This document shows, in pieces, positions 12,989 through 62,296 of a stretch of 64,000 nt of DNA; position 1 is the first letter of the stretch, and each line of letters begins with the position of its first letter. The DNA comes from Candidatus Fermentibacterota bacterium. Lineage in GTDB: Bacteria > Fermentibacterota > Fermentibacteria > Fermentibacterales > JCC-6. The notes below the pieces were generated by a model. That model saw nothing but the letters and a program-made list of their open reading frames with translations, made no database searches and was not told where the DNA came from. The position numbers and the translations under genes were made by a program. The DNA lies in the NCBI GenBank assembly GCA_014728175.1, contig WJMA01000017.1, forward strand, positions 124,001 to 188,000. Direction: 5' to 3'.

Positions 12989-15900
12989 GTGAAGAAAGTC
13001 TTCCCTTTTCTGTTGCTGCAGGCGCTTGTTGTCGTTTACACGTCCGCTATCGCCGGAATCGGGGTGTCTCCTCCCTCCCTGCTCCCCGACTACCCGTACC
13101 GGTTTCTGGACCGGGAGTTTCCAAGGATCTACGGAGACGTCGGCTACAGGGTCCTCGTAGTGCCCTCTGTTCGCAAAGAACTGCTCAACTTCAGGTTGTC
13201 CTACATGGGTCGCCCGGTGTCCCGAGCCCGCAGCTGGGGCGTCGACCCCTTGCTCTCCAGGCTCACCACCGAGGGCATGCTCCGGGTGTGGCGTAGGACC
13301 AACCGTGAGCATTCCATAAGAAGGGACAGGGAGGAGGGAACTCTGGTACCCACCATTTACCTTCCCCTGGACATGCCCACGGCGCTGGAGAGGACCATAG
13401 GCGAGGGAGGCCAGCTGGACATATCCGGCCATCAGAAGCTCACCCTGTCCGGAATCACCCACTACAGGCCCAACGCCGTTCTGGAGGAGGACGAGAGCAG
13501 GTCGCTCTTCCCCGATCTCAAGATGGAGCAGGAGCTGAGGATCAGGCTCCAGGGTACGATAGGGGAGAAGATACACGTGGACGTCGACCACGACAGCGAG
13601 CGCAGCCTGCAACCGGAGAGCAGCATCAGCCTTCGGTACGAGGGGTGGGACGACGAGATAATCCAGAGTGTGGAGATGGGAGACGTCAGCCTATCCATCA
13701 CCGGGCCGGAGTTCGTCTCCTACAGCATACCGCACCAGGGGCTGTTCGGGGCCAAGGTCGAGGCCCAGGTGGGGCCTGTGGACGTTACCACCATAGCCAG
13801 CAAAGAGGCCAGCTCGACCGAGTCGGCGGAGTTTGTGGGCCAGGCGACCTTGTACTCCGACTCCCTGTTGGACATCCATCCCGCCCGGAACTACTTCTTC
13901 CTGACCGAGCCGGACACCGCCCCCCAGCCCAGGATAGTGAGCATCCGGGTCTTCCAGGACGACCTGGATGGAACCAACAACCTGGAAACCGGCGCCGTGG
14001 AGGGCGACTGGTTCCTTTCGGACACCACCGGCTCCGGACACTGGGACGAGCTGACCCAGGGATTGGACAACGACTTTGTTTTGGAGGACTCCACCTACAT
14101 CAGGTTCATCTCGCCGATCTCGGAGTACTACCGGGTGGCCGTGTGGTACGTAACGGCCGAAGGCGATACGATGGGATTGGTTCCTTCCGGCGGTCCTTAC
14201 GAGCTGAAGCTGATAAAGGATTCCAACCGCACCACGTCCAACCCGACCTGGTTCTACGAGCTTCGCAGCCGTTATTTCCTGGGGGCCAATAACATCGTTC
14301 GTGAGAGCTTCGAATGCGAGATCTATCTCGACCGGCCGGGGGAGGATCCGGTCTCAACCCAGGGAGACAGCACGTTCGTGCAGCTGCTGGGCCTGGACAC
14401 CAACGGCGACGGCAGCATGGTCGATGAGGCGGATGCGGTGGATTGGGACAACGGATTCCTGGTCTTTCCCAAGCCCCGGCCCTTCGACAGCGAGGTGCTG
14501 GACGTAAGGAATCCCCAGGTTTACGAGAAACGCAACCCGCAGACCAGCGACAGCAAGTACTTCATCTCAGTGAGCTACAGGGCGGCATCGACCACATACA
14601 CCCTGGGAAGGCTGGGCATAGTTCCGGGAAGCGAGAGGGTAACCCTATCCTCGCCCACCGAGACCATAACCCTTCAGCGGGACGTCGATTACACAATTAT
14701 CTACGAAGCGGGCATGCTTACCCTGATGGGCGAGGCCGCCGAGAAGGCCCAGGACCCCACCTACGAATTGAGGGTGACCTTCGAGTACCTTCCCTTTATG
14801 GCGGCCCAACAGAAGCTGCTCTTCGGTACCAGAGCGGTGTACAATCTGGGGCAGCACTCCTGGGTGGGGACGACCATGATGTTCGAGGACGCCAGCACGC
14901 CGGACCAGAGACCCAGGGTGGGCGAGGAATCCAGCAGGACGTTCGTAACCGACGTCGATGCCCATCTGGAAGTCAGGCCGGGAATCCTTAACGACATCGC
15001 AAACGCCGTCCCCATGGTTAATACCGACGCCGAGAGCAGGCTGGTACTCTCCGGAGAGGTGGCGGCCAGCATTCCCAATCCCAACGTGGACGGCAAGGCC
15101 TACATCGACGACATGGAAGGAGCCGAGTCTTCCCTTCCTCTCGGCCAGAGCAGGCTGTCGTGGTCCCGAAGCAGCTTCCCGGAGAGCTCCTCGCCCATGC
15201 TGCATCCTCCCGGCAGGCTCAAATGGTACAACCCGTCCAAGAGGTGGAAGAGGGGAGACATAGTGCCCAACCTCTCCGAGGAGGATGCAGACGACTGGGC
15301 GCAGACCGTGCTGGAGCTTTGCTTCCGTCCTGCCGACGACAATCCCACCTCGTGGGGAGGGATCATGCGCTGCATCGACAGGTACGGTATGGACATGACC
15401 AGGAAGACCAGGATAAGGCTGTACGTCAGGCCTCCGCAGAACACCCAGGACGCGACCCTCTACATCGACATCGGCGAGAGGATCAACGAGGACGCCGTCT
15501 GGCTGGAGAGGGTGGGAGGAACCCTGCGGCGATGGGCGAACGGCGAGTTGGACACCGAAGACGTTGACGGAGACGGAATCTTCGAGCAATCCAGCGAGGA
15601 TACAGGCCTGGACAACGTGTTCAGCAGCGGGGAGGAGGGGTACGATCCGGATACCCTGCCGGATCCCAACAAGGACGACCAGGGTCAGACCACGTATCCC
15701 TACGAGAGGATAAACGGTACCGAGGGCAACAAGCGCCTGGACACCGAGGACCTGAACGGCAACGGCGCCCTGGATGCCTCCAACTCCTTCTTCAGGATAG
15801 AGGTCCCGCTGTACGACGACGACTACGTGGTCTCGGAGAATCTGCAGACCGGCTGGAAGCTGATAGAGGTTCCCCTGGATGACAGCCTGATGGTGACCGT

Positions 15901-18580
15901 GCCGGAGAACGTGTCCGGCCAACCCACCTGGGAGAAGGTATCCTACGTCAGGCTCTGGACCGAGGGCTACACGACCCAGGATACCCTTCTGGTCTACGAC
16001 ATGTCCGTGGTGGGAAACAGGTGGGAGCAGAGGAACGTTACGGTCATCAGAGTTCCCGCACCCCCCGTGAAACCCTACGAGCAGTTGCTGGTCTCCACGG
16101 TCAACAACAAGGAAAACCCGGAGTACATAAACGATCCTCCCCCCGGAGTGGATCCCGGTGAGGACGAGAGAGGCGACCCCAAGCTGGAGCAGTCGATAAG
16201 GCTGAACTGTGTTTCGATGGAGCCCGGGCACGAGGGACGGGCCAAGCAGGTCTACTACTCCTCGGAGAGCTATACGGGCTACGGTAGCGTGCAGTTCCTG
16301 CTGCACGGAAGCGAGGACGCCCCGGGGGAGTTCTTCTACCGCCTGGGAAGCGACAGCCTCAATTACTACGAGATAAACGTGCCCTTGCGGCGGGGGTGGC
16401 AGGTGGTCAGGGTTAGCATGGAGGACCTGGTCGCTCTCAAGCAGCAGCTGCAGGGACAGGGCGGCGATTTCATCAGATCCGACGATCTTGCGATCAGGGG
16501 TACGCCCAACTTCGCGGACGTCGTGGAGATGAGCATAGGCATAAGAAACACCTCCAGCTCCACGTTGTCCACGGAGGTCTGGGTGAACGACATCACCCTT
16601 CACGACCCCCGCAGCGAGGCGGATCTGGCCCGCAGGATGACCGCGGAGGTTGATTTCGCGGATCTTCTTCTGCTGGACGGTGACTACCGCTGCGTGGGCG
16701 CGGACTTCCACGGGTTGGGAGAGCAGTCCGGCCAGGGCTACGAGTCGACCCGGTACACCACCGGGGGAACCCTGAACATGGAGCGTTTCACCCCGCCCCT
16801 GTGGTCGCTTTCGGCGCCCTTCGGCCTGGCGTGGACCAGAAAGACCACCGAGCCAGTTTTCCAGCCCAGCTCCGACGTGAGATTGAGCGACGAGGAGTCC
16901 TGGGCCAACCGGACGGATGTCCGTACCTTCGATACCAGTCTTCAGCTGGACAGAAACGCCCGCTCGGACAACGTCTGGCTACGCTACTTCGTCGACCCTC
17001 TTCGGTTCGCGCACAACTACGGAAGGTCCAACCGGCTTGCCCCCAACTCTCGGGACAGCTCGACCTCGCACCGGATAAGGCTGAGTTACAGCCTGTCACC
17101 CGGCCCCATGCGGCTGCTGGAGTTGCCCGTACTCAAGGAGCTGCGACTCCGGCCAACCAGCGTCGGCTGGTCGGCGGAAAGGTCTGCCGGTTGGAGTACC
17201 AGGTGGGAGACGTCGTCGGGGGAAGACGTGCAGACCCGCTACACCCTGAAGAGAGAGCTCAGGACCAACGGCTCGGCGGGATTCGCTTTCTGGACGGGGC
17301 AGAACACCAATTACTCGCTCAACGTAACCAGGGACCTTCTATATCCATGGGACAAGGCAACGCTGGTCAATGTGGGACGGGAGATAGCAAGGAGCCAGAG
17401 CGTCAGCCTATCCCAGGACGTAAACCTGTTCAGATATCTCCGTCCGAGGGTAAGCTTCGACTCCCACTACTCCTCCGCCCGGCCGGCCCCCCACACCAAG
17501 TCCGGCCAGGACAGCCTGGGGCTGCCGGATTACTCCCTTTCCACCACCAGAAGGTTGAGCCTGACGGTGGGTCTGGTCCATACGATACGCTCCCTGGCTC
17601 GTTTGAGGGACGAGCGTCTGGACGAGGAGGCGGAGCCGGGAAGCCCGAGGTGGCTGCTGGTCCAGCTGGAGAAGTACGCGGACAGAATATACGACCCCAA
17701 CCTTACCATCAGTCGCTCCCTGGGTAGCGAGTACCGCGACATGCAGCACTATCCGGACCTGGAGTACCAGTTCGGACTGAGGACCGTTCTGGAGGACGAG
17801 GAGGCGTACGACCGCAGCAAGACCGACAACTTCCAGATAAACGGCGGGTTCCGCCCTCTGAGCATGATGTCGGTCCGGATGGAGTACAGCAACTCCGACA
17901 GCAGGAACTACTACGCCGGTTACTGGAACCGTCAGAAGTCAACCACCTGGCCCTCGGTCACCCTCTCCTGGTCCGGCCTGGAGCGCCTGGCCGCTTTCAG
18001 GGACCTTTTCAGAACCGGCACGATAAGCACCGGTTACAGCGTACAGACCACCGAAAGCGGAAGGTACGAGCAGGACAGCTACGTACCCACCTCCAAGACC
18101 GAGAACAGGAACTGGTCCCCTCTGTTTAGTTTAAATGCAACACTATACAATAGCGTCCAGGTTACGATTTCGGATAATCTTAGAACCACCAGAACCCGCA
18201 ACTATACCGGGACCAACGCCCAGACCAAGAACAGCAGCAACAACCTCCAGTTCAAGCTCCAGTACGCCTTCAGCGCTCCCGGGGGATTGGCAATTCCGTT
18301 GCCGCTGCTGGATAGGTTGAGGGTTCGCTTCCGCAGCGATTTGACCACCAGCCTGAGCATCAGCGCCAGTACGTCGAAGAGCGAGATAATCGGTCTAAGC
18401 CAGGGAAGTGAGGTGCAGAGCGACATCGAGCAGTGGAGGATCGAGCCTGCGCTGAACTACGACTTCGGCTCCGTGGTGGCTGGTCTTACGGGTATATACG
18501 GTTGGAAGAAAGACAACGTGAACTCGCAGTACGACCAGAAGGACGTAGGTCTGAACGTCTGGGTCACCATAAACTTCTAG
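12989..18580 (+). CDS. sprA: SprA-family giant outer-membrane protein (type IX secretion translocon)
   Basis: The protein has 1863 residues, a signal peptide at 1-22, and mostly beta-type sequence ending in VWVTINF. At about 220-275, IIQSVEMGDVSLSITG, then HQGLFGAKVEAQVGPVDVTT, matches the repeated SprA region (a membrane-strand pattern with a LFG-x-K motif). The phrase IVSIRVFQDDLDGTNN at about 310-330 is also SprA-like. Three DxDGDG-type loops, probably calcium-binding, lie at about 470, 860 and 920. In Bacteroidota, SprA is the conduit for type IX secretion across the outer membrane. This homologue is shorter than the roughly 2400-residue gliding-motility SprA. The start is a GTG at 12989 without a clear ribosome-binding site. 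Confidence 0.85.
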   Translation: MKKVFPFLLLQALVVVYTSAIAGIGVSPPSLLPDYPYRFLDREFPRIYGDVGYRVLVVPSVRKELLNFRLSYMGRPVSRARSWGVDPLLSRLTTEGMLRVWRRTNREHSIRRDREEGTLVPTIYLPLDMPTALERTIGEGGQLDISGHQKLTLSGITHYRPNAVLEEDESRSLFPDLKMEQELRIRLQGTIGEKIHVDVDHDSERSLQPESSISLRYEGWDDEIIQSVEMGDVSLSITGPEFVSYSIPHQGLFGAKVEAQVGPVDVTTIASKEASSTESAEFVGQATLYSDSLLDIHPARNYFFLTEPDTAPQPRIVSIRVFQDDLDGTNNLETGAVEGDWFLSDTTGSGHWDELTQGLDNDFVLEDSTYIRFISPISEYYRVAVWYVTAEGDTMGLVPSGGPYELKLIKDSNRTTSNPTWFYELRSRYFLGANNIVRESFECEIYLDRPGEDPVSTQGDSTFVQLLGLDTNGDGSMVDEADAVDWDNGFLVFPKPRPFDSEVLDVRNPQVYEKRNPQTSDSKYFISVSYRAASTTYTLGRLGIVPGSERVTLSSPTETITLQRDVDYTIIYEAGMLTLMGEAAEKAQDPTYELRVTFEYLPFMAAQQKLLFGTRAVYNLGQHSWVGTTMMFEDASTPDQRPRVGEESSRTFVTDVDAHLEVRPGILNDIANAVPMVNTDAESRLVLSGEVAASIPNPNVDGKAYIDDMEGAESSLPLGQSRLSWSRSSFPESSSPMLHPPGRLKWYNPSKRWKRGDIVPNLSEEDADDWAQTVLELCFRPADDNPTSWGGIMRCIDRYGMDMTRKTRIRLYVRPPQNTQDATLYIDIGERINEDAVWLERVGGTLRRWANGELDTEDVDGDGIFEQSSEDTGLDNVFSSGEEGYDPDTLPDPNKDDQGQTTYPYERINGTEGNKRLDTEDLNGNGALDASNSFFRIEVPLYDDDYVVSENLQTGWKLIEVPLDDSLMVTVPENVSGQPTWEKVSYVRLWTEGYTTQDTLLVYDMSVVGNRWEQRNVTVIRVPAPPVKPYEQLLVSTVNNKENPEYINDPPPGVDPGEDERGDPKLEQSIRLNCVSMEPGHEGRAKQVYYSSESYTGYGSVQFLLHGSEDAPGEFFYRLGSDSLNYYEINVPLRRGWQVVRVSMEDLVALKQQLQGQGGDFIRSDDLAIRGTPNFADVVEMSIGIRNTSSSTLSTEVWVNDITLHDPRSEADLARRMTAEVDFADLLLLDGDYRCVGADFHGLGEQSGQGYESTRYTTGGTLNMERFTPPLWSLSAPFGLAWTRKTTEPVFQPSSDVRLSDEESWANRTDVRTFDTSLQLDRNARSDNVWLRYFVDPLRFAHNYGRSNRLAPNSRDSSTSHRIRLSYSLSPGPMRLLELPVLKELRLRPTSVGWSAERSAGWSTRWETSSGEDVQTRYTLKRELRTNGSAGFAFWTGQNTNYSLNVTRDLLYPWDKATLVNVGREIARSQSVSLSQDVNLFRYLRPRVSFDSHYSSARPAPHTKSGQDSLGLPDYSLSTTRRLSLTVGLVHTIRSLARLRDERLDEEAEPGSPRWLLVQLEKYADRIYDPNLTISRSLGSEYRDMQHYPDLEYQFGLRTVLEDEEAYDRSKTDNFQINGGFRPLSMMSVRMEYSNSDSRNYYAGYWNRQKSTTWPSVTLSWSGLERLAAFRDLFRTGTISTGYSVQTTESGRYEQDSYVPTSKTENRNWSPLFSLNATLYNSVQVTISDNLRTTRTRNYTGTNAQTKNSSNNLQFKLQYAFSAPGGLAIPLPLLDRLRVRFRSDLTTSLSISASTSKSEIIGLSQGSEVQSDIEQWRIEPALNYDFGSVVAGLTGIYGWKKDNVNSQYDQKDVGLNVWVTINF

Positions 18581-29313: not shown

Positions 29314-29679
29314 ATGAAAAAGGGATTTACGCTTATTGAATTGATGATCGTGGTGGTGATCATTGGAATCCTGGCCGCAATGGCCATTCCCAAGTTCACC
29401 AACGTCCAAGACCAGGCGAAAACCGCCGGCTGCAGGCAGAACATGAAGGTTATAGCTACCGCCGAGGCAGTCTATTTCGCCGTCTACGACTCGTACACAA
29501 CCGCCTTGGCGAACCTGAACAAGATTCAGCCCAACGCCTCGCTGCTGCGCTGCCCCACCCAGTCCGGAACCTACACCTTATGGCTTCCCGGAGCCGGGGA
29601 GTACGCCGTGTCGTGTGACGATTATCCGGCCGTTTCCGAGCACGGTTCGGTCTACGAGGGAATAACCAGCTGGCAATGA
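29314..29679 (+). CDS. Type IV pilin 1
   Basis: The 121-residue prepilin has a short leader and class III signal KKGFTLIELMIVVVIIGILA; cleavage by prepilin peptidase comes after Gly4, leaving Phe1 and the conserved Glu5. The hydrophobic helix continues to about residue 28, then an amphipathic alpha part and a small globular domain with two Cys (RCPTQSG and VSCDDY), probably forming the C-terminal disulfide loop. The end EGITSWQ is shared with pilin 2. Ribosome-binding site AGGAGGGAA precedes the ATG. At 121 residues it is a short pilin, comparable to the compact pilins known from Geobacter and some other lineages. Confidence 0.93.
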   Translation: MKKGFTLIELMIVVVIIGILAAMAIPKFTNVQDQAKTAGCRQNMKVIATAEAVYFAVYDSYTTALANLNKIQPNASLLRCPTQSGTYTLWLPGAGEYAVSCDDYPAVSEHGSVYEGITSWQ

Positions 29680-29813
29680 GGCTACGTATCCCGCGCTTTG
29701 CGCATCGCAGGGCTTGCAGAATGCAACACATTGGTGTTTCCCCGTTCTATGCATTTCGTCTGGAAAAACATCAAACCCCAGTTAAGCGACCAGTTAGAGC
29801 ACGATATGGGCTT

Positions 29814-29829
29814 TGGCACGCTTTATGCT
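29814..29829 (+). promoter_or_regulatory. Sigma-54 (-24/-12) promoter of pilin gene 2
   Basis: TGGCACGCTTTATGCT matches the TGGCACG-N4-TTGCW consensus except for one base. GG at 29815-29816 and GC at 29827-29828 are ten bases apart. It lies 53 bases before the pilin start. With the similar site at 29272 this gives each intact pilin its own PilR/sigma-54 promoter. Confidence 0.88.
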
Positions 29830-29881
29830 CTTTTTTATGTTAGATAGTGCAACTAGAAACCCAAGCCGGAAAGGAGTGAAG

Positions 29882-30244
29882 ATGAAGAAAGGCTTCACCC
29901 TGATCGAGCTGATGATCGTGGTGGTCATCATAGGCATTTTGGCCGCGATAGCCATCCCGAAGTTCAGCAACGTTCAGGAACAGGCGAAGAAGGTATCTTG
30001 CCAGGGCAACATGAGAACTCTGGCCACTGCCGAGCAGATGTACTACTCCGAGTACAACACCTACGGAACCCTCGCTCAGATCGATGCGAGCATGCAGGAG
30101 AACGCGGCCGAACTGAGATGTCCCGAGGACACTAACCTCGGCTCGTATAGCGTAACTGACGGAGGCGATTCGTACAGAATCGACTGCCCTTGGGATCCAA
30201 CCTTGCATGGATCGATCGACGACGGAGTCATCAGCTGGCAGTAA
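29882..30244 (+). CDS. Type IV pilin 2
   Basis: The 120-residue prepilin starts at the ATG at 29882, behind GGAAAGGAGTGA. Leader and helix are textbook (KKGFTLIELMIVVVIIGILA, then AIAIPKFSNVQEQAK), with cleavage after Gly4 and Glu5 kept. The C-terminal domain is rich in acidic residues and has Cys in RCPEDTNL and DCPWDPT, likely a disulfide, and ends GSIDDGVISWQ. It shares the architecture of pilin 1 and is most like the damaged pilin 3 in the C-terminal half. A strong terminator follows directly. It is probably the major pilin, given the best promoter and a perfect helix, but this is inference. Confidence 0.93.
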   Translation: MKKGFTLIELMIVVVIIGILAAIAIPKFSNVQEQAKKVSCQGNMRTLATAEQMYYSEYNTYGTLAQIDASMQENAAELRCPEDTNLGSYSVTDGGDSYRIDCPWDPTLHGSIDDGVISWQ

Positions 30245-30266
30245 CCTAGGAGAGCCTTCGAAGGGA

Positions 30267-30297
30267 ATGGCGGTGGAGATCCCACCGCCATCTCTTT
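30267..30297 (+). terminator. Rho-independent-type terminator after pilin 2
   Basis: A perfect 10-bp inverted repeat (ATGGCGGTGG / CCACCGCCAT, 30267-30276 and 30282-30291) with a 5-base loop is followed by CTCTTTGT. It lies 23 bases after the pilin 2 stop and separates it from pilin 3. Confidence 0.75.
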
Positions 30298-30318
30298 GTC
30301 CCCTAAAGCAAGAGGAAG

Positions 30319-30687
30319 GTGCTAAAGAGAGGCTTCACCCCGATAGAGCCGGTAGTGGCGGTGGAAGTCCTGGCACTGCTCGCGTTGATAGCCGTTCCGC
30401 GTATCGCAGGACAGACAGAGGAGGCCGCCACGTTTTCCTGCCAGCGGAACATGATCGCCCTGGCCACGGCCGAATCGATGTACTTCGCCGAGTACGACTG
30501 CTACAAGGCACATATGCCAGATCTGGCCGTCATGCTTGATAACGCTCCCGATCTGCGCTGTCCCGAAGACGCCGGCGTTGGTCAGTACAACCTTGCCGGA
30601 ACCGCCAGTGACGTATACGAGATCCGCTGCCCCTGGGATGCTACGGAGCACGGATCGATCGACGACGGAGTTGTCGGCTGGGATTAG
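30319..30687 (+). CDS. Pilin-like protein with a disrupted N-terminal helix (decayed or divergent pilin 3)
   Basis: The 122-residue frame begins with GTG at 30319, behind AGAGGAAG. It aligns end to end with pilin 2: the C-terminal half is close (RCPEDAGVGQYN, RCPWDATEHGSIDDGVVGWD). Yet the helix that must pack into the pilus core is altered: KRGFTPIEPVVAVEVLALLA has Pro at positions 3 and 6 of the mature protein (CTG to CCG changes) and a Glu inside the hydrophobic stretch. Gly-Phe and Glu5 are kept. Such prolines should bend the helix and probably impede assembly. The frame is otherwise intact, which suggests a recent decay, a specialised minor pilin, or a sequence donor for pilin 2. Confidence 0.7.
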   Translation: MLKRGFTPIEPVVAVEVLALLALIAVPRIAGQTEEAATFSCQRNMIALATAESMYFAEYDCYKAHMPDLAVMLDNAPDLRCPEDAGVGQYNLAGTASDVYEIRCPWDATEHGSIDDGVVGWD

Positions 30688-33448: not shown

Positions 33449-34768
33449 CTACCTGATGTACCCGAGGTCGCGCAGCTGGGTTTTTATGGCTTCGTCCATC
33501 TCCACCGCGGGCGGCTCTGCCAACGGAGGGGTGGACCAGTAGTCCAGAGCGGCCTGCAGCAGAGACTCGTCGGGGGGCAGAGGATCGGTTTCCCCGGCGT
33601 CTGCCGATAGATCGAACGCCTGGGAGACGTCTATGGCGGCATCCCAGATTACCTTTTTTTCCCCCCGAAGGACGCAGGCCTGTTTCTGGTTGCCCCACAA
33701 TATCCCGCTGGAGGGAAGGATCCTGGACGAATCGGAAAGCAATGACAGATCAACTCCGTGCGAGGCGGAAGGCGCCTCCACTCCCAAGGCCGAAAGCACC
33801 GTAGGAAGGACGTCCAGCTGGGCCACGGTGGTGTGAATGGTCTGTCCGCCCCGAAAGCCCGGCCCACACAGGATCAACGGGACGTGCAGAAGCTCCTGGT
33901 ACAGCGTGTGACCGTGCTCGATGCCTCCGTGATCCAGGAACTCCTCTCCATGATCGGCTATTACCGTCACCAGCGTGGAATCACCTCCGGTGGCTCTCAC
34001 CTCGGCCAGCAGCCTTCCCAGCTCTCGGTCGGTGTACGCGATCTCCCCATCGTAGAGGTTTACCAGGTTGCGCAGACCCTCCGGGGGAATGGAATCCTCA
34101 CCGGAGTTGACCCCCATGATCTGAGGCACGTGTCCCCAGCTGTTGTCGTACGGTCCTTCGTAGCCGGGATCGGTGAACAGGGTATCGAATGGAGGTGGAG
34201 GATCGTAGTTTATGTGCGGGTCGTAGAAGTGGACCGCCAGGAAGAACGGCTCGCCGGGCTCACGGTCGGCCAGCCAGGATATCGCCTGGTCGACGGTTTG
34301 ACCGGCCGTCCTTCGGCTGTGGAAATCCGTCAGACCCGAGCAATCGAAATGGTCGAATCCCCTGTGAAGACCGAAATCGGCGTTCATGAAGACCACGTTG
34401 AAGAACGCCGTGGTTGCGTATCCCTGTGCAGAAAGGACCTCGGGCAGATAGGCAAGCTCGTAGCTAAGGCCGTGGAAGCGGTCGTTCCTTGCACCAGCTC
34501 CGTGCTGCCTGGGAGTCAGTCCGGTGAGGATGGTCACCATCGCGGGCAACGTCCAGGAACTCTGTGATTGGCAACGCTCGAACAATACACCCTCGGCGGC
34601 CAGGCTGTCTATGGTGGGAGAGGTATCGCGATGGTAGCCGTAGCAGCCCAGGTGGTCCGCCCTGAGGGTATCTATCAGAACGAGAACTATGCTAGGCCCG
34701 ACCGGTCGCTTACCACATGAAGCTGCTAAAAGCAATACAATGATGGAAATGGCGGTTGCGATTCTCAT
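33449..34768 (-). CDS. Sulfatase/alkaline-phosphatase-superfamily lipoprotein
   Basis: The 439-residue protein has a lipoprotein signal (IVLLLAASCGK). The metal-binding start VLVLIDTLRADHLGCYGY and the later VIADHGEEFLDHGGIEHGH give the two-metal site of the alkaline-phosphatase/sulfatase fold. The nucleophile region reads SQSSWTLPAMVTILTGL. The C-x-P-S-R motif that is modified to formylglycine in true sulfatases is missing, so Thr or Ser is the likely nucleophile and it may be a phosphatase or a phospho-sugar/phosphoethanolamine-type transferase. The ATG at 34768 has AAAGGTG upstream. It is the first gene of a two-gene unit with the GT-C-like protein. A run of 6 G and 7 A lies inside the coding sequence (33654-33666). 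Confidence 0.82.
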   Translation of the reverse strand: MRIATAISIIVLLLAASCGKRPVGPSIVLVLIDTLRADHLGCYGYHRDTSPTIDSLAAEGVLFERCQSQSSWTLPAMVTILTGLTPRQHGAGARNDRFHGLSYELAYLPEVLSAQGYATTAFFNVVFMNADFGLHRGFDHFDCSGLTDFHSRRTAGQTVDQAISWLADREPGEPFFLAVHFYDPHINYDPPPPFDTLFTDPGYEGPYDNSWGHVPQIMGVNSGEDSIPPEGLRNLVNLYDGEIAYTDRELGRLLAEVRATGGDSTLVTVIADHGEEFLDHGGIEHGHTLYQELLHVPLILCGPGFRGGQTIHTTVAQLDVLPTVLSALGVEAPSASHGVDLSLLSDSSRILPSSGILWGNQKQACVLRGEKKVIWDAAIDVSQAFDLSADAGETDPLPPDESLLQAALDYWSTPPLAEPPAVEMDEAIKTQLRDLGYIR

Positions 34769-34889
34769 TGATTCACCTTTCCGACGATTAGGTCGAGTAA
34801 TCCTAGCCTAATAAAATATCCTTACTATCTGTTAGAACTCACTCCCAATATGTGTTCAATTCAGAAATAGGCAACGTAACTGGAGCGAG

Positions 34890-34914
34890 TTGACAGTATG
34901 GGGGGGGGTATGAT
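34890..34914 (+). promoter_or_regulatory. Promoter-like boxes separated by a 9-G tract
   Basis: A perfect -35 box TTGACA (34890-34895) and TATGAT (34909-34914, five of six consensus bases) flank GTAT plus nine G (34900-34908). The spacer is only 13 bases; about 17 would be best, so promoter strength should depend on the length of the G run. The gene start is 81 bases downstream. The assignment assumes that the primary sigma factor reads standard boxes. Confidence 0.5.
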
Positions 34915-34994
34915 GCAATTATGGCTTCCTAGTTCGCCTACCGGCCATAAGTTTTTTATTACTTACCTATCTTGTAGGATAAGGAGGGCCTGAC

Positions 34995-36482
34995 ATGGCT
35001 ACTCTCCGAGCAAGCCTGCTGTGTCTCGTTATCGGCTGTTTTCTTGCTGCCGGGCCTGTGGCGGCAAACGATTGGGAGGAGGTAGAAACCACTAGCGGCA
35101 ACTGGGCCAGACTCTTCGAGGTGTTCGATGATGATCATGCCATATTGGCCGGACATGGCGATTTTTTAGACGGTTGGCATGACGCCTTCGGCGCTACGGA
35201 TGATGGTTTCAGCACCTGGCCTTCCGGTTCTGACCAGTATTACTTCAACGAAAAAACACTCGACAAGGTTCGAGCCATTTCCTTCCCGTCCGATAGCTGC
35301 GCCTACTGGGTCGAAAAAACAACTCTGTGGGTAAACAACGATAGCGTATACACTTACGATAGTTCCGATTGGGACAGCGTCTATACGTGGAGTGATTACG
35401 ATGTCATTAGGAATATTCACTTCATAAGCAATGACGAGGGTTGGGTGCTTCTCAAGGATGGTGGGAAGACAATCCAATACTCGATCCAATACACCTCAGA
35501 TGCTGGCAGCAGTTGGACCGAAGTCGATTTATGGAATCATAGCGTCGAATGGCCTGAGCACAGTGGAATGTACTGGGGACGTGGTGGCTATAGACTCATG
35601 GTGAATGACGATTACTATGGTGTAGTAACCGGAATGGGTTGCTTCAGATATACCACTGATGCCAGCGATTCCACAACCAGCTGGGCATTTGGAGCAATAC
35701 CGAACAGCAGTCGGATATGGCGCGACAAGCACATAAATCAAACATGTTTTGGTCAGGCAGCTCTTGCAACCGATTCTACGCATAGGGGCTGGGTTGCACG
35801 ATGGGGAATTTGGCCAGCATCGGTCCATTTTGGGCAGGTACTGGGATTCTCCCTCCCCAAGGCGCCAATCACCTTTTATTGGGAGGAAATCACTGAACTT
35901 GCCGATAGTGGGTCTATTTACTACAGCGTACTCCCGGAGGAGTTTACGTCCGGCTATGCCATTGGCCAGGCAGAAATAGGTAACAATGTAATCCATGCTA
36001 TTGCAAGGCTTTACTATTCCCAAAGCAGTTGGCACAAGGACGTTGAATGGCAGGAAACGATCAACCGCATTACCATGCCAGCCTACGAGGGAGAGCCACT
36101 CCGCCTTATTTCGGATGTTGAAGATGCTGCCTATGCTCTGCTTTTGTTTGGTGACGTTAGCGGTAGAATACTACGAAGAGACCCGAACGACGCGTTGGTT
36201 GCGTGGAACGCTCCGAACAGTGCTACTGAGAGACATGAAGTCAGCACCGAGTTCCGAGCCGGACAATTACGTGTGATGATGGAACTGGACTACGCAGGAT
36301 CGGCAACAATCGATGTATTCGATCTTGCAGGTCGAAAAGTCTGCGAATACTACGCCGAAGATCTAAGTCCAGGCATGAACAGCCTGTCAGTTCCCATACC
36401 CGAGGTGCCCTTCGGCGTATATTGCTATCGCATTAGCAATGATGATAATACTCTGGGAACCGGTAAGTTCTTGGTTTTTTAA
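34995..36482 (+). CDS. Secreted protein with type IX secretion-like C-terminal sorting domain
   Basis: The 495-residue protein has a signal peptide (ASLLCLVIGCFLAAGPVAA) and a large region rich in Trp, Tyr, Ser and Asp with WVLLKDGGKT and YTSDAGSSWTEVDLW, like the BNR/sialidase-type or YCF48-like beta-propeller blades. The last 80 residues resemble the T9SS type A sorting domain: ATIDVFDLAGRKVCEYY, then LSPGMNSLSVPI, PFGVYCYRISNDD and GTGKFLVF. It is therefore probably exported by the SprA machinery. The DNA here is clearly more AT-rich than in the rest of the window. GGATAAGGAGGGCC precedes the ATG. A strong hairpin follows. The substrate or role is unknown. Confidence 0.75.
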   Translation: MATLRASLLCLVIGCFLAAGPVAANDWEEVETTSGNWARLFEVFDDDHAILAGHGDFLDGWHDAFGATDDGFSTWPSGSDQYYFNEKTLDKVRAISFPSDSCAYWVEKTTLWVNNDSVYTYDSSDWDSVYTWSDYDVIRNIHFISNDEGWVLLKDGGKTIQYSIQYTSDAGSSWTEVDLWNHSVEWPEHSGMYWGRGGYRLMVNDDYYGVVTGMGCFRYTTDASDSTTSWAFGAIPNSSRIWRDKHINQTCFGQAALATDSTHRGWVARWGIWPASVHFGQVLGFSLPKAPITFYWEEITELADSGSIYYSVLPEEFTSGYAIGQAEIGNNVIHAIARLYYSQSSWHKDVEWQETINRITMPAYEGEPLRLISDVEDAAYALLLFGDVSGRILRRDPNDALVAWNAPNSATERHEVSTEFRAGQLRVMMELDYAGSATIDVFDLAGRKVCEYYAEDLSPGMNSLSVPIPEVPFGVYCYRISNDDNTLGTGKFLVF

Positions 36483-36514
36483 TAAGGTAGACTAACTGAA
36501 AGCCATTAACCTGA

Positions 36515-36546
36515 GAGAAGGCCGGGGAGAAATCCCCGGTCTTCTC
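36515..36546. terminator. Long GAAA-capped hairpin after the secreted-protein gene
   Basis: GAGAAGGCCGGGGA pairs with TCCCCGGTCTTCTC over 14 base pairs (one G-T pair) with a GAAA tetraloop. It lies 33 bases after the stop at 36482. No T run follows, so it may act as an RNA-end stabiliser as well as a terminator. Confidence 0.65.
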
Positions 36547-36549
36547 ACA

Positions 36550-37152
36550 TAATTTGGCTATAAACCACTCCTGGCTAAGTGATCCGTGCAGTGCTTTTGG
36601 CTGTGCAAACGACGCCTTAACATTATCCAGGTGACGATTTAGTTTCTTGATGTTTGCTCGAATATCGTATTGACTGCCATGAGGGGGCGTTGACAACAGG
36701 CTATTTTCCCATGTTTGGGAATCGCATCTACAAGAAACGTAATCAATGACAGCGCAATCAATTTCGGAATCATAACCGCGGCGTATAGCTACTGATGCCA
36801 AATAGAATGCCGTACAATGAGATCGAAAACATAGGTGGCTTGGGTGTAGGGATGCCTTGGAACCTTCAGCGTCAGGATGACCAAAAGCGATAATGGGACC
36901 GCGGTTTGGCCTACACTGCGTGGGACGGTTTGTTTACGGAGGCAGAATAACCCAAAATATTCATTTATCCGAGTAGCCCAATAAAGATGTACGTAAGGAA
37001 ACTAATCGCCGTACTTTATTAGTGAATGCAGGAGTTATGCGCACTGAAGGGGGCCGTCGGCCTTCAAGCTGTTGGAGGATCATCTACCTTGGGACTATCG
37101 TACTAACTGGGAAAAGGGGCGTCTCAAACATTCCTTAACAAAAAGAGAATGC
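36550..37152. other. AT-rich 600-base stretch without a convincing gene
   Basis: No open frame with a good start and ribosome-binding site is seen on either strand. A minus-strand frame (stop near 36433, open back to about 36927) has no ATG. A TTG at 36801 would give 122 residues with no recognised similarity and without a ribosome-binding site, and it would run through the hairpin. A short inverted repeat GGCC-GTC-GGCC lies near 37055. The composition suggests either a decayed gene or the regulatory region of the TMTC-like gene. Confidence 0.4.
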
Positions 37153-59164: not shown

Positions 59165-60912
59165 CCGGCGGTTCCCTCCATGGCTACGACGACGTGGAAA
59201 AGGTTCGTGACGCCAGCGACATAGCGGAGATCGTGGGTCGTTACGTGAACCTGGAAAGAAGCGGCCGCAGCCTGCGGGGCCTTTGCCCGTTCCATAAGGA
59301 GAAGACCCCGTCCTTCTTCGTCGCCCCCGAGAAACAGGTGTTCCACTGCTTCGGCTGCGGGGAGGGCGGGGACGTGTTCACCTTCCTTATGAAGTACTTC
59401 GGTATATCGTTCTCCGAGGCCCTGCGGGAGTTGGCCGACGAGGCCGGAATAACCCTCAGCCGGGGGCGGAAGGATAGCGACCGCTCCGAGCAGCTGCTGG
59501 AGATACTGCGGGAGAGCCGGGAATTCTTCTACTCCCATCTCTTCTCCGATACCGGGTCCGGGGCCAGGAGCTATCTTCAGGGCCGACAGATCTCCCTGGA
59601 AATCGCCCGCAGGCTGGGTATCGGTTGGGCGCCACCGGGAAACGTTCTTCTGGAGCACCTGCGGGAGATGGGCTACTCCGAGTCCACCATCGTGGAGACC
59701 GGGGTGGCGCGAAGGTCCAGGGACGGTCGGAGGGTCTACGATCTGATGAGGGAACGGATCGTTTTTCCCATCGGGGACCGCAGCGGCAGGACGGTTAGCT
59801 TCGGCGGCAGGGCCCTGGGGGACGGGGAACCAAAGTACCTCAACGGTCCCGAGACGTCCGTTTACCGCAAGGGGGCGCTTCTGTACGGATACCGGGAGGC
59901 CAGGGAGCCGGCCCGGGAGAGGGAGATGGTCATTCTCGTCGAGGGCTACTTCGATCATGCCCGGCTGTTCGAGTCCGGGTTCGAGTGCGTGGTGGCCACC
60001 TGCGGCACCGCGCTGACTCCTACCCAGGCCCGGCACGTGTCCTCCCTCTCACCCCACATATTGCTGTGCTTCGACAGCGACCGCTCCGGAAGGAGGTCCG
60101 CGGTGCGGGCCGCCGAAGTATTGCTCCAGGAGGGAGGCAATCCCCTGATGGTAGGGTTGCCCCAGGATATGGACCCGGACGATTTCCTTCAAAAGAAGGG
60201 TCCGGAGGCCTTCGAGAAGCTTCTCGGCTCAGCCATGAATCCCATCGATTACGGTCTGTGGGTGTTGGGAGGCTGGGAGGAGGTGGAGGGCACCAGAAGG
60301 CGGGTGGACGTGGTCAAGAGGTTGGTCGAGGTATCCATGTCCGCCTCGGACCCTGTGGTGAGGGAGACGCTTCTGCGTACCATAGGGGAGCGAACCGGCT
60401 ACTCCATGGCTACCCTCAAGGAAGAGCTCGAGGAGATCTCCAGGCGCTCCCGCCCGGGGCGGAGAAGACGCAGGAAAGAGACCGACCGGCTCTCGCGGCG
60501 TGAATCCACGCTGCTCAGGGCTCTCCTCAGCTCTTCGGGCGAGTGCTTCGAGCGTCTGGCCTGCAACGTCCAGGTCGACGATTTCGAGTCCAGAGCGGGC
60601 AAAGAGCTGTTCGAGATGATAAGAAGGCAGGCGGAGGCAGGTTGTGACAGGGTTTCGCTTGGTGAGTTGGGCGATACATATTCGTCACTTTCGGCCAGAT
60701 TGATGACCGATGGAAAGGCTCCCGAGGCGTCGGAGGTGGACAGGATACTGAGCAGCGTCGAGGTCCACAGGCTGGAGCGAAAGCGCAGGCAGCTTCGACG
60801 GGAGATGGAAGAGTTGTCGGACATGTCGAAGAGGGGGGAAATGCTTTCCAGGCTGGACAGACTGGGGAGAAGGATAGTCGAGCTGAAGAGCGGTCGGGAC
60901 GATGACCGATAG
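59161..60912 (+). CDS. dnaG: DnaG, DNA primase
   Basis: The 583-residue primase makes RNA primers at the replication fork. The N-terminal CHC2 zinc finger has Cys42-x2-His45 in LCPFHKEKTPSFFV and Cys63-x2-Cys66 in FHCFGCGEGGDVF. The TOPRIM core carries VILVEGYFDHARLF with the catalytic Glu, LTPTQARHV and LLCFDSDRSGRRSA for the metal-binding Asp residues. RYVDLMRERIVFPIGDRSGR-type sequence precedes it. A helicase-binding C-terminal region (about 430-583) is helical and diverged. It overlaps mutS2 and the sigma factor gene; dnaG-rpoD is the conserved order of the macromolecular-synthesis operon. Confidence 0.96.
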   Translation: MTGGSLHGYDDVEKVRDASDIAEIVGRYVNLERSGRSLRGLCPFHKEKTPSFFVAPEKQVFHCFGCGEGGDVFTFLMKYFGISFSEALRELADEAGITLSRGRKDSDRSEQLLEILRESREFFYSHLFSDTGSGARSYLQGRQISLEIARRLGIGWAPPGNVLLEHLREMGYSESTIVETGVARRSRDGRRVYDLMRERIVFPIGDRSGRTVSFGGRALGDGEPKYLNGPETSVYRKGALLYGYREAREPAREREMVILVEGYFDHARLFESGFECVVATCGTALTPTQARHVSSLSPHILLCFDSDRSGRRSAVRAAEVLLQEGGNPLMVGLPQDMDPDDFLQKKGPEAFEKLLGSAMNPIDYGLWVLGGWEEVEGTRRRVDVVKRLVEVSMSASDPVVRETLLRTIGERTGYSMATLKEELEEISRRSRPGRRRRRKETDRLSRRESTLLRALLSSSGECFERLACNVQVDDFESRAGKELFEMIRRQAEAGCDRVSLGELGDTYSSLSARLMTDGKAPEASEVDRILSSVEVHRLERKRRQLRREMEELSDMSKRGEMLSRLDRLGRRIVELKSGRDDDR

Positions 60913-62296
60913 GGCCCGGTCCCGGAACCTGGATCTTAACTCCAGCACGCTCTTCTACAAGCAGCTGGACGTGGTACCGCTGCTTACCGAGGAGGAGGAG
61001 AGGAGCCTGGTACAAAGCCAGGAGGAGAGCAGGCTTCGCATGCTGTCCGCTCTTATGAGCGTGCCTCCGGGAAGGAAGGCCGTGCTCCGGCCGCTGCAGA
61101 GACTGGCTGCGGGTAGAAGGGAGCCCGACGAGATACTTGACGCCTCCTACTGGGAGACCTCGAACGGCGTGCTCCCCCGGAAAAGAAGGGAAGAGCTGAG
61201 GAGCCGCCTGGAGGAGGCAGCGAAGGCGGGCGCACCCTCCGAGGCCATGGGTCGGGCCCGGCTGGACTGGCAGTACGTGGAGTCCGAAGGCAGGAGGGTG
61301 TTCGGTAGGCTGCGGGAATGCGAACAGCTCATGCAGGAACTGGAGTCCGCCCTGGAAGGTAGCGGCAAATCCGGTCAGACCATCGAGAGGGAGGCGCTGC
61401 AGTTCGAGACCGGCTGTAACAACGACGGGGAGCTGAGAAGGTCGTGGATACTCAGACACAGGTTGAGCGACCTCCGCAAGCGTCTGGCGTTGGTGGAGGC
61501 GGAATGCGGGGTGACCCTGGAGGAGCTGTTCGAGGCCGGAAGACGTTTCGAGAAGGCGTTCGGAGAGTACAGGTCCATACTGGAGAAGCTGGTGGAAGCC
61601 AACCTGAGGCTGGTCGTGAAATGGGTCAGGAAGTATTACCGCACGAACGCCATAGAGGAGATGGACCTGATACAGGAGGGTTGCAAGGGCTTGTTGAGAG
61701 CGGCCATGCGATACGACTGCAAGCGGGGGTGCCGGTTCTCCACCTACGCCGTGTGGTGGATAAGACAGGCCATTCTGAAGGCTCTGGTGGGCCAGTGCAG
61801 GATCATAAAGCTGCCCCCCAAGGCGGCAAGCAGGAACTCGGCCCTGAGGGACGCCATCCATGAGAGCGTGGTCCGAGACGGCAGACAGCCCAGCGTGTCC
61901 GAGTTGGCGGAAAAGCTACAGATCGATAGGGAACACGTGATCTGTCTGCAGGAGATGGGCGAGGTGCCGGTCTCCCTGGACGTGCCCGTAGGACGCGACG
62001 ACGTTCCACTGGCCGATTACATAGCCTCCAGGTGCGTAACCCCGGAAGCGGAGGCTTTCGTCGACGATCAGAGAAGGAGGATCTACAAGGCATTGGCCAA
62101 GATATCGGAGAGGGAGAAGACCGTTATCTCGCTTCGGTTCGGCCTGGTCGACGGAGAACCGCAGACCCTGGAAGCGGTGGGGAAGGTGTTCGGGGTGAGC
62201 AGGGAGAGGATAAGGCAGATAGAAGCCAGGGCTCTGGCCAAGCTGCGCAGGGAGGGCATCCTGTTCATAGCCGACAGAGAGGACACCAGGGGATGA
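60902..62296 (+). CDS. rpoD: Sigma-70-family (RpoD-type) sigma factor with divergent region 2.4
   Basis: The 464-residue protein follows dnaG, the usual place of rpoD. Region 1.2 (LFYKQLDVVPLLTEEEERSL), a helical nonconserved stretch, region 2 (NLRLVVKWVRKYYRTNAIEE, MDLIQEGCKGLLRAAMRYD, FSTYAVWWIRQAILKAL), region 3 and region 4 (EREKTVISLRFGLVDGEPQT, VFGVSRERIRQIEARALAKL) are all present; region 1.1 is missing. In region 2.4 the usual DQARTIRIP reads GQCRIIKLP: the Gln that contacts -12 is kept (Gln298), but the neighbouring Thr is Ile301. It may be the primary sigma factor with changed promoter taste, or an alternative one that took this place. Confidence 0.85.
   Translation: MTDRARSRNLDLNSSTLFYKQLDVVPLLTEEEERSLVQSQEESRLRMLSALMSVPPGRKAVLRPLQRLAAGRREPDEILDASYWETSNGVLPRKRREELRSRLEEAAKAGAPSEAMGRARLDWQYVESEGRRVFGRLRECEQLMQELESALEGSGKSGQTIEREALQFETGCNNDGELRRSWILRHRLSDLRKRLALVEAECGVTLEELFEAGRRFEKAFGEYRSILEKLVEANLRLVVKWVRKYYRTNAIEEMDLIQEGCKGLLRAAMRYDCKRGCRFSTYAVWWIRQAILKALVGQCRIIKLPPKAASRNSALRDAIHESVVRDGRQPSVSELAEKLQIDREHVICLQEMGEVPVSLDVPVGRDDVPLADYIASRCVTPEAEAFVDDQRRRIYKALAKISEREKTVISLRFGLVDGEPQTLEAVGKVFGVSRERIRQIEARALAKLRREGILFIADREDTRG

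Follow-up and report, generated by a model that had tools for sequence, protein, structure and literature searches.

A run of nine G lies between the -35 and -10 hexamers of a promoter-like site upstream of an orphan gene for a putative secreted protein, in the 64,000-nucleotide stretch of Candidatus Fermentibacterota DNA analysed here (hereafter the window). We tentatively interpret this G9 locus, with somewhat less than even confidence, as a phase-variable promoter in which the tract forms part of the spacer, with weak or no activity at G9 and full activity at G12-G14. It is a credible, unproven candidate for the kind of switch described for porA, fetA and tp0126. Phase variation had been proposed in a preliminary description of the same DNA; that proposal was somewhat strengthened by the present analysis and stays plausible. 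Its account of the boxes, the tract and the spacing defect was borne out; the sorting domain of the downstream protein is weak, and the analogy to opc needs correction.

On direct reading of the plus strand, TTGACA and TATGAT are separated by a 13-nt spacer (34896-34908), which consists of GTAT followed by GGGGGGGGG (Table 1). The box coordinates, the count of nine G and the 13-base spacing reported earlier were all exact on re-reading. TATGAT is identical to TATAAT at five of six bases. The gap between the sulfatase gene and the secreted-protein gene is 226 bp, and a separate promoter-like pair, TTGCCT-N16-CATATT, starts at 34874 on the minus strand. The short reading frame that opens just past the tract is probably not translated.

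Table 1. Features of the G9 locus and its surroundings; positions are those of the window.
Feature	Positions	Strand	Basis or remark
-35 box TTGACA	34890..34895	+	8.2 bits under the promoter model of this genome, locus held out
G9 tract within the 13-nt spacer	34900..34908	+	direct reading and run survey
-10 box TATGAT	34909..34914	+	6.1 bits under the same model
Short reading frame, start just past the tract	34910..34993	+	direct reading; ends 1 base before the gene's ATG
Downstream gene's ribosome binding site (AAGGAGG)	34981..34987	+	direct reading
Gene of the orphan 495-aa putative secreted protein, ATG at 34995	34995..36482	+	
Divergent sulfatase-family gene, same intergenic region	33449..34768	-	PF00884, 154.5 bits

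Genes were predicted in a 0.82 Mb sample of the genome, 296 upstream regions were taken, and a two-block promoter model was fitted on the 295 other regions with the G9 locus held out. TTGACA was the top enriched hexamer upstream of genes (29 regions versus 7.3 in shuffles), near-consensus box pairs showed a sharp peak at spacers of 16-18, and the learned promoter was TTG(A/C)C(G/A)-N17-TAT(A/C)TT. Spacers of 16-18 carried 89% of the spacer weight, with the optimum at 17, and a spacer of 13 carried 1.2%. The TTGACA/TATGAT pair scored 14.3 bits before the spacing term, and the next-best promoter-like pair in the region scored 8.4 bits. With a spacer of 17 the pair would be outscored by 3% of the upstream regions, compared with 46% at its actual spacer of 13. 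By this organism's own standard the boxes are thus good, and what is defective is their spacing. The earlier view that the spacer is too short was thereby confirmed, with good boxes, an optimum of 17 and spacing as the only flaw. By position and by box scores, the homopolymer separates a putative -35 and -10 pair that matches this organism's promoters; a spacer of 16-18 would need G12-G14, and the optimum spacer is attainable through a change in the tract. None of the other canonical spacers in the upstream sample contained a G/C run longer than 5.

In the proposed mechanism, the housekeeping sigma factor would use a promoter whose spacer carries a slippage-prone G9 tract. Nine G would give the 13-bp spacer and leave the promoter weak or off, which is probably its present state. 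Slipped-strand mispairing with a gain of 3-5 G would extend the spacer to 16-18 bp, at which length the orphan secreted protein would be transcribed. We infer both the slippage and the off state at this locus, as well as every step from slippage to expression. A tract only nine long and 3-5 G short of a good spacer counts against a switch, as do the presence of MutS and the lack of a second such promoter in the organism's own genome. With MutS encoded, raised slippage through loss of mismatch repair is not expected.

The primary sigma factor is encoded within the window (60902-62296) and has an atypical segment, VGQCRIIKLPP, after WWIRQAIL. The preliminary description had added a caveat about its -10-reading region, and region 2.4 is indeed unusual, reading WWIRQAIL against WWIRQAIT in solved homologues, with leucine replacing the usual threonine. 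We take this threonine position, as in E. coli RpoD, to have a role in reading the first -10 base. The caveat proved to be of minor importance, since the -10 element learned from the genome is ordinary; the -35-reading helix RERIRQIE is intact.

On present evidence, coincidence is nearly as likely as phase variation: an ordinary G run would have fallen between promoter-like hexamers, with transcription of the gene driven by a different promoter or sigma factor. A first-order Markov model of the window (GC 59%) predicted, for runs of at least nine in 64 kb, about two of G and one of C, in line with a coincidence; one was observed. Genome-wide (2.6 Mb), 13 G/C runs of at least nine were found, eight of them in predicted genes and four at contig ends, and the tract of the G9 locus was the sole internal intergenic one, which speaks against coincidence. 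With about two runs expected by composition and a single internal intergenic one, the length of the run is ordinary and its placement singular. Because runs of nine are otherwise mostly genic, the genome shows no class of long intergenic tracts, which counts against a switch.

The promoter survey also bears on both sides of this question. Thirteen pairs of equal score occurred at non-standard spacings among the 296 upstream regions, spacers in this genome are G/C-rich at positions 6-9 anyway, and the whole window had been scanned for anything notable, all of which favor coincidence. Against it, the genome's own model found no other good promoter pair on the plus strand of the 226-bp gap, and a run inside a good pair would arise by chance in at most about 5% of cases with other notable placements allowed (rough hand estimate). 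Over the whole window, TTGACA was not above chance (14 seen versus 18.9 expected). A strict pattern of TTGACA, G8 and TANNAT in this order, with gaps of at most 8 and at most 5 bases, respectively, was scanned in 42 genomes of the phylum; in the organism's own genome it matched the G9 locus only, and it matched none of the other 41. A 33-G run at the extreme end of contig C23 (L073:732-764) is likely a sequencing artefact.

Several characterized promoters provide a comparison. In T. pallidum, tp0126 (an OmpW homologue) has a poly-G tract between -35 and -10, with a transcription optimum at a spacing of 17 (PMC7864442). The G9 locus shares the tract position, and its model optimum is also 17; dependence of transcription on tract length has been shown for tp0126, whereas it is presumed here. 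The two loci also differ in phylum and in product, an outer-membrane protein versus an orphan secreted protein. A poly-G tract between the boxes is likewise common to N. meningitidis porA (PMC7864442) and the G9 locus; strain variation is known for porA, whereas one assembly represents the locus here. In N. gonorrhoeae fetA, the length of a homopolymer between -35 and -10 alters expression (PMC5320596), but that tract is poly-C and ranges from 10 to 14 across strains, in contrast to G9 in a single assembly. The original analogy to both opc and porA held for porA, with its tract between the boxes, and was imprecise for Neisseria opc, where the poly-C tract extends into the -35 region (PMC7864442).

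Short poly-G tracts of T. pallidum tprL and tprE/G/J vary in vivo and affect transcription; that of tprL is mostly 9, with an in vivo range of 7-11 (PMC7864442). The tprL tract differs in lying in the -10 region and leaving the spacer unchanged. Since it is mostly nine long yet varies, nine G are not too short for variation. If the G9 locus is a switch, spacer-tract phase variation, described for Neisseria and Treponema in the papers cited above, would reach a lineage that is uncultured and has type IX secretion, and a simple read-based test of switching would become available for other metagenome-assembled genomes. If it is not, the locus would be a useful case of a composition-driven G run mimicking a switch.

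About 1.5 Mb from relatives was sampled, including some contigs chosen for carrying a tract. A looser pattern (G9, up to 4 bases, TANNNT) gave sites in 22 of 42 phylum genomes; the reversed control gave a similar total, so the total by itself is no excess. When the sites were read singly, many were coding or adjoined a start codon, and two further loci were promoter-like. One (L165) reads TTGACA-N9-G9-TATATA, with a spacer of 18, upstream of a predicted lipoprotein gene. The other, present in two closely related genomes (L176 and L178), reads TTGACG-C-G10-TAAA-TATATT, with a spacer of 15; a model built from relatives of that genus gave the same kind of promoter, with spacer 17 at 68%. TTGAC(A/G) accompanied 3-5% of ordinary TANNNT sites at spacers of 12-20. 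With the G9 locus excluded, it stood behind 2 of about 15 intergenic G9-TANNNT sites versus about 0.6 expected (P about 0.1; about 0.03 with the G9 locus included; hand estimate), a weak excess in the relatives. The spacers of the tract promoters (13, 15 and 18), set against the sharp peak at 17 elsewhere, are what would be expected of varying tracts.

Tract length could also be compared between homologous sites. One intergenic tract, whose flanks are 91% identical, is G9 in L168 but G10 in L241, and a tract inside a 64-nt element (81% identity) is G11 in L152 and G10 in L155; the tracts of L176 and L178 are equal, both G10. Intergenic G tracts thus change length over evolutionary time in this phylum, which is distinct from switching at the G9 locus. 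A broader proposal appears rather doubtful: that G tracts in promoter spacers, perhaps before start codons too, would act as lineage-wide contingency loci in this small uncultured phylum, where they would switch lipoproteins, small modified peptides and secreted proteins in bacteria that have a type IX secretion system. In L176 (1640-3017) and L178, a gene for a small Cys-rich peptide (MQFTVINLVQSVSQAGCNMNQGVCNELGG...) is followed by a radical SAM gene; together, behind the promoter-like site with its G10, they resemble a gene cluster for a modified peptide.

At several sites in relatives (L150, L154, L161, L239 and L240), the start of a gene lies 1-4 bases past a G9 tract, which looks like a stand-in for the ribosome binding site, and several of these genes have signal-peptide-like N-termini. 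The ATG of the short leader frame at the G9 locus lies at the same distance from its tract. A translational role, with the tract replacing the ribosome binding site of this leader and the leader coupled to the gene, would nevertheless be very improbable: the gene has a strong ribosome site of its own, the tract-to-start spacing in the relatives is partly forced by the search pattern, and under the promoter reading the RNA start falls downstream of the leader's ATG.

Some candidate sites in relatives were rejected. A bump of intergenic G9 runs in genome G009 had been considered as promoters, and two of the three runs are arms of a G9/C9 hairpin (L202:7205-7235), with the arms 13 bases apart between converging genes. 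A perfect -10 hexamer after G9 in G020 (contig C277) contains a start codon 4 nt past the tract, and a good -35 box at normal spacing is missing.

The 495-aa product of the downstream gene has a signal-peptide-like N-terminus, and the genome encodes a type IX translocon (SprA family TIGR04189, 416.9 bits, window 12989-18580). The C-terminal sorting domain is weak: the protein reached 18.0 bits for PF18962 (cut-off 27) and 17.4 bits for TIGR04183 (cut-off 23), and no type A sorting domain over a curated cut-off was found in it. Of the 81 sorting-domain matches in the genome, 79 are over the cut-off. Scores below the curated cut-offs indicate a likeness to divergent cargo and no family membership, and we infer from sequence that the protein may be a divergent type IX cargo that falls outside the family as defined. 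The initial label of a type IX-like secreted protein fits the N-terminus and the translocon and is partly supported, the sorting domain being weak.

No full-length relative of the orphan gene was found in 60 genomes, where only the C-terminal sorting tail matched; sorting tails of relatives align to residues 428-494. The source genus comprises this one genome. A phmmer search of the protein against solved structures gave no useful match, and single-sequence structure prediction gave a mean pLDDT of 35.

The GC content of the gene is 0.50, the lowest among sampled genes over 600 bp (mean 0.62), and the surrounding stretch (34769-37152) is mostly 0.43-0.55 versus about 0.60. This low-GC stretch with its orphan gene suggests horizontal acquisition. 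Composition and orphan status, together with a spacing of 13 far off the preferred 17, are compatible with a dead or permanently weak promoter, in which the tract shrank or the gene was horizontally acquired and the 13-bp spacer is fixed. We consider this unlikely: the 495-codon frame is intact and has a good ribosome site, which suggests that the gene is used at least sometimes.

Phase variation within the coding sequence was rejected for the G9 locus. A stop codon, TGA (34911-34913), lies in the gene's own frame directly after the tract, so no change in tract length could bring the gene into one frame with a start codon further upstream. G9-TAAAAT sites on contigs C47 and C48 were discarded as a second tract promoter, since they are at contig ends and fall within the first part of a gene encoded on the opposite strand. 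The first 141 bases of these contigs (L076:1-141 and L077:1-141) are identical, an overlap that looks like the assembler's k-mer. On the other strand this stretch carries the start of a secreted-protein gene with C9 right after the ATG, and in the C38 paralogue (L109:1501-1641) the tract is interrupted and 1 base longer, with the ATG out of frame. This is a possible coding-tract switch, judging from these sequences.

Three tandem type IV pilin-like genes were observed at 29314-30687 of the window; the leader of the third is degenerate, with GFTPIEPVVAVE replacing GFTLIELMIVVV.
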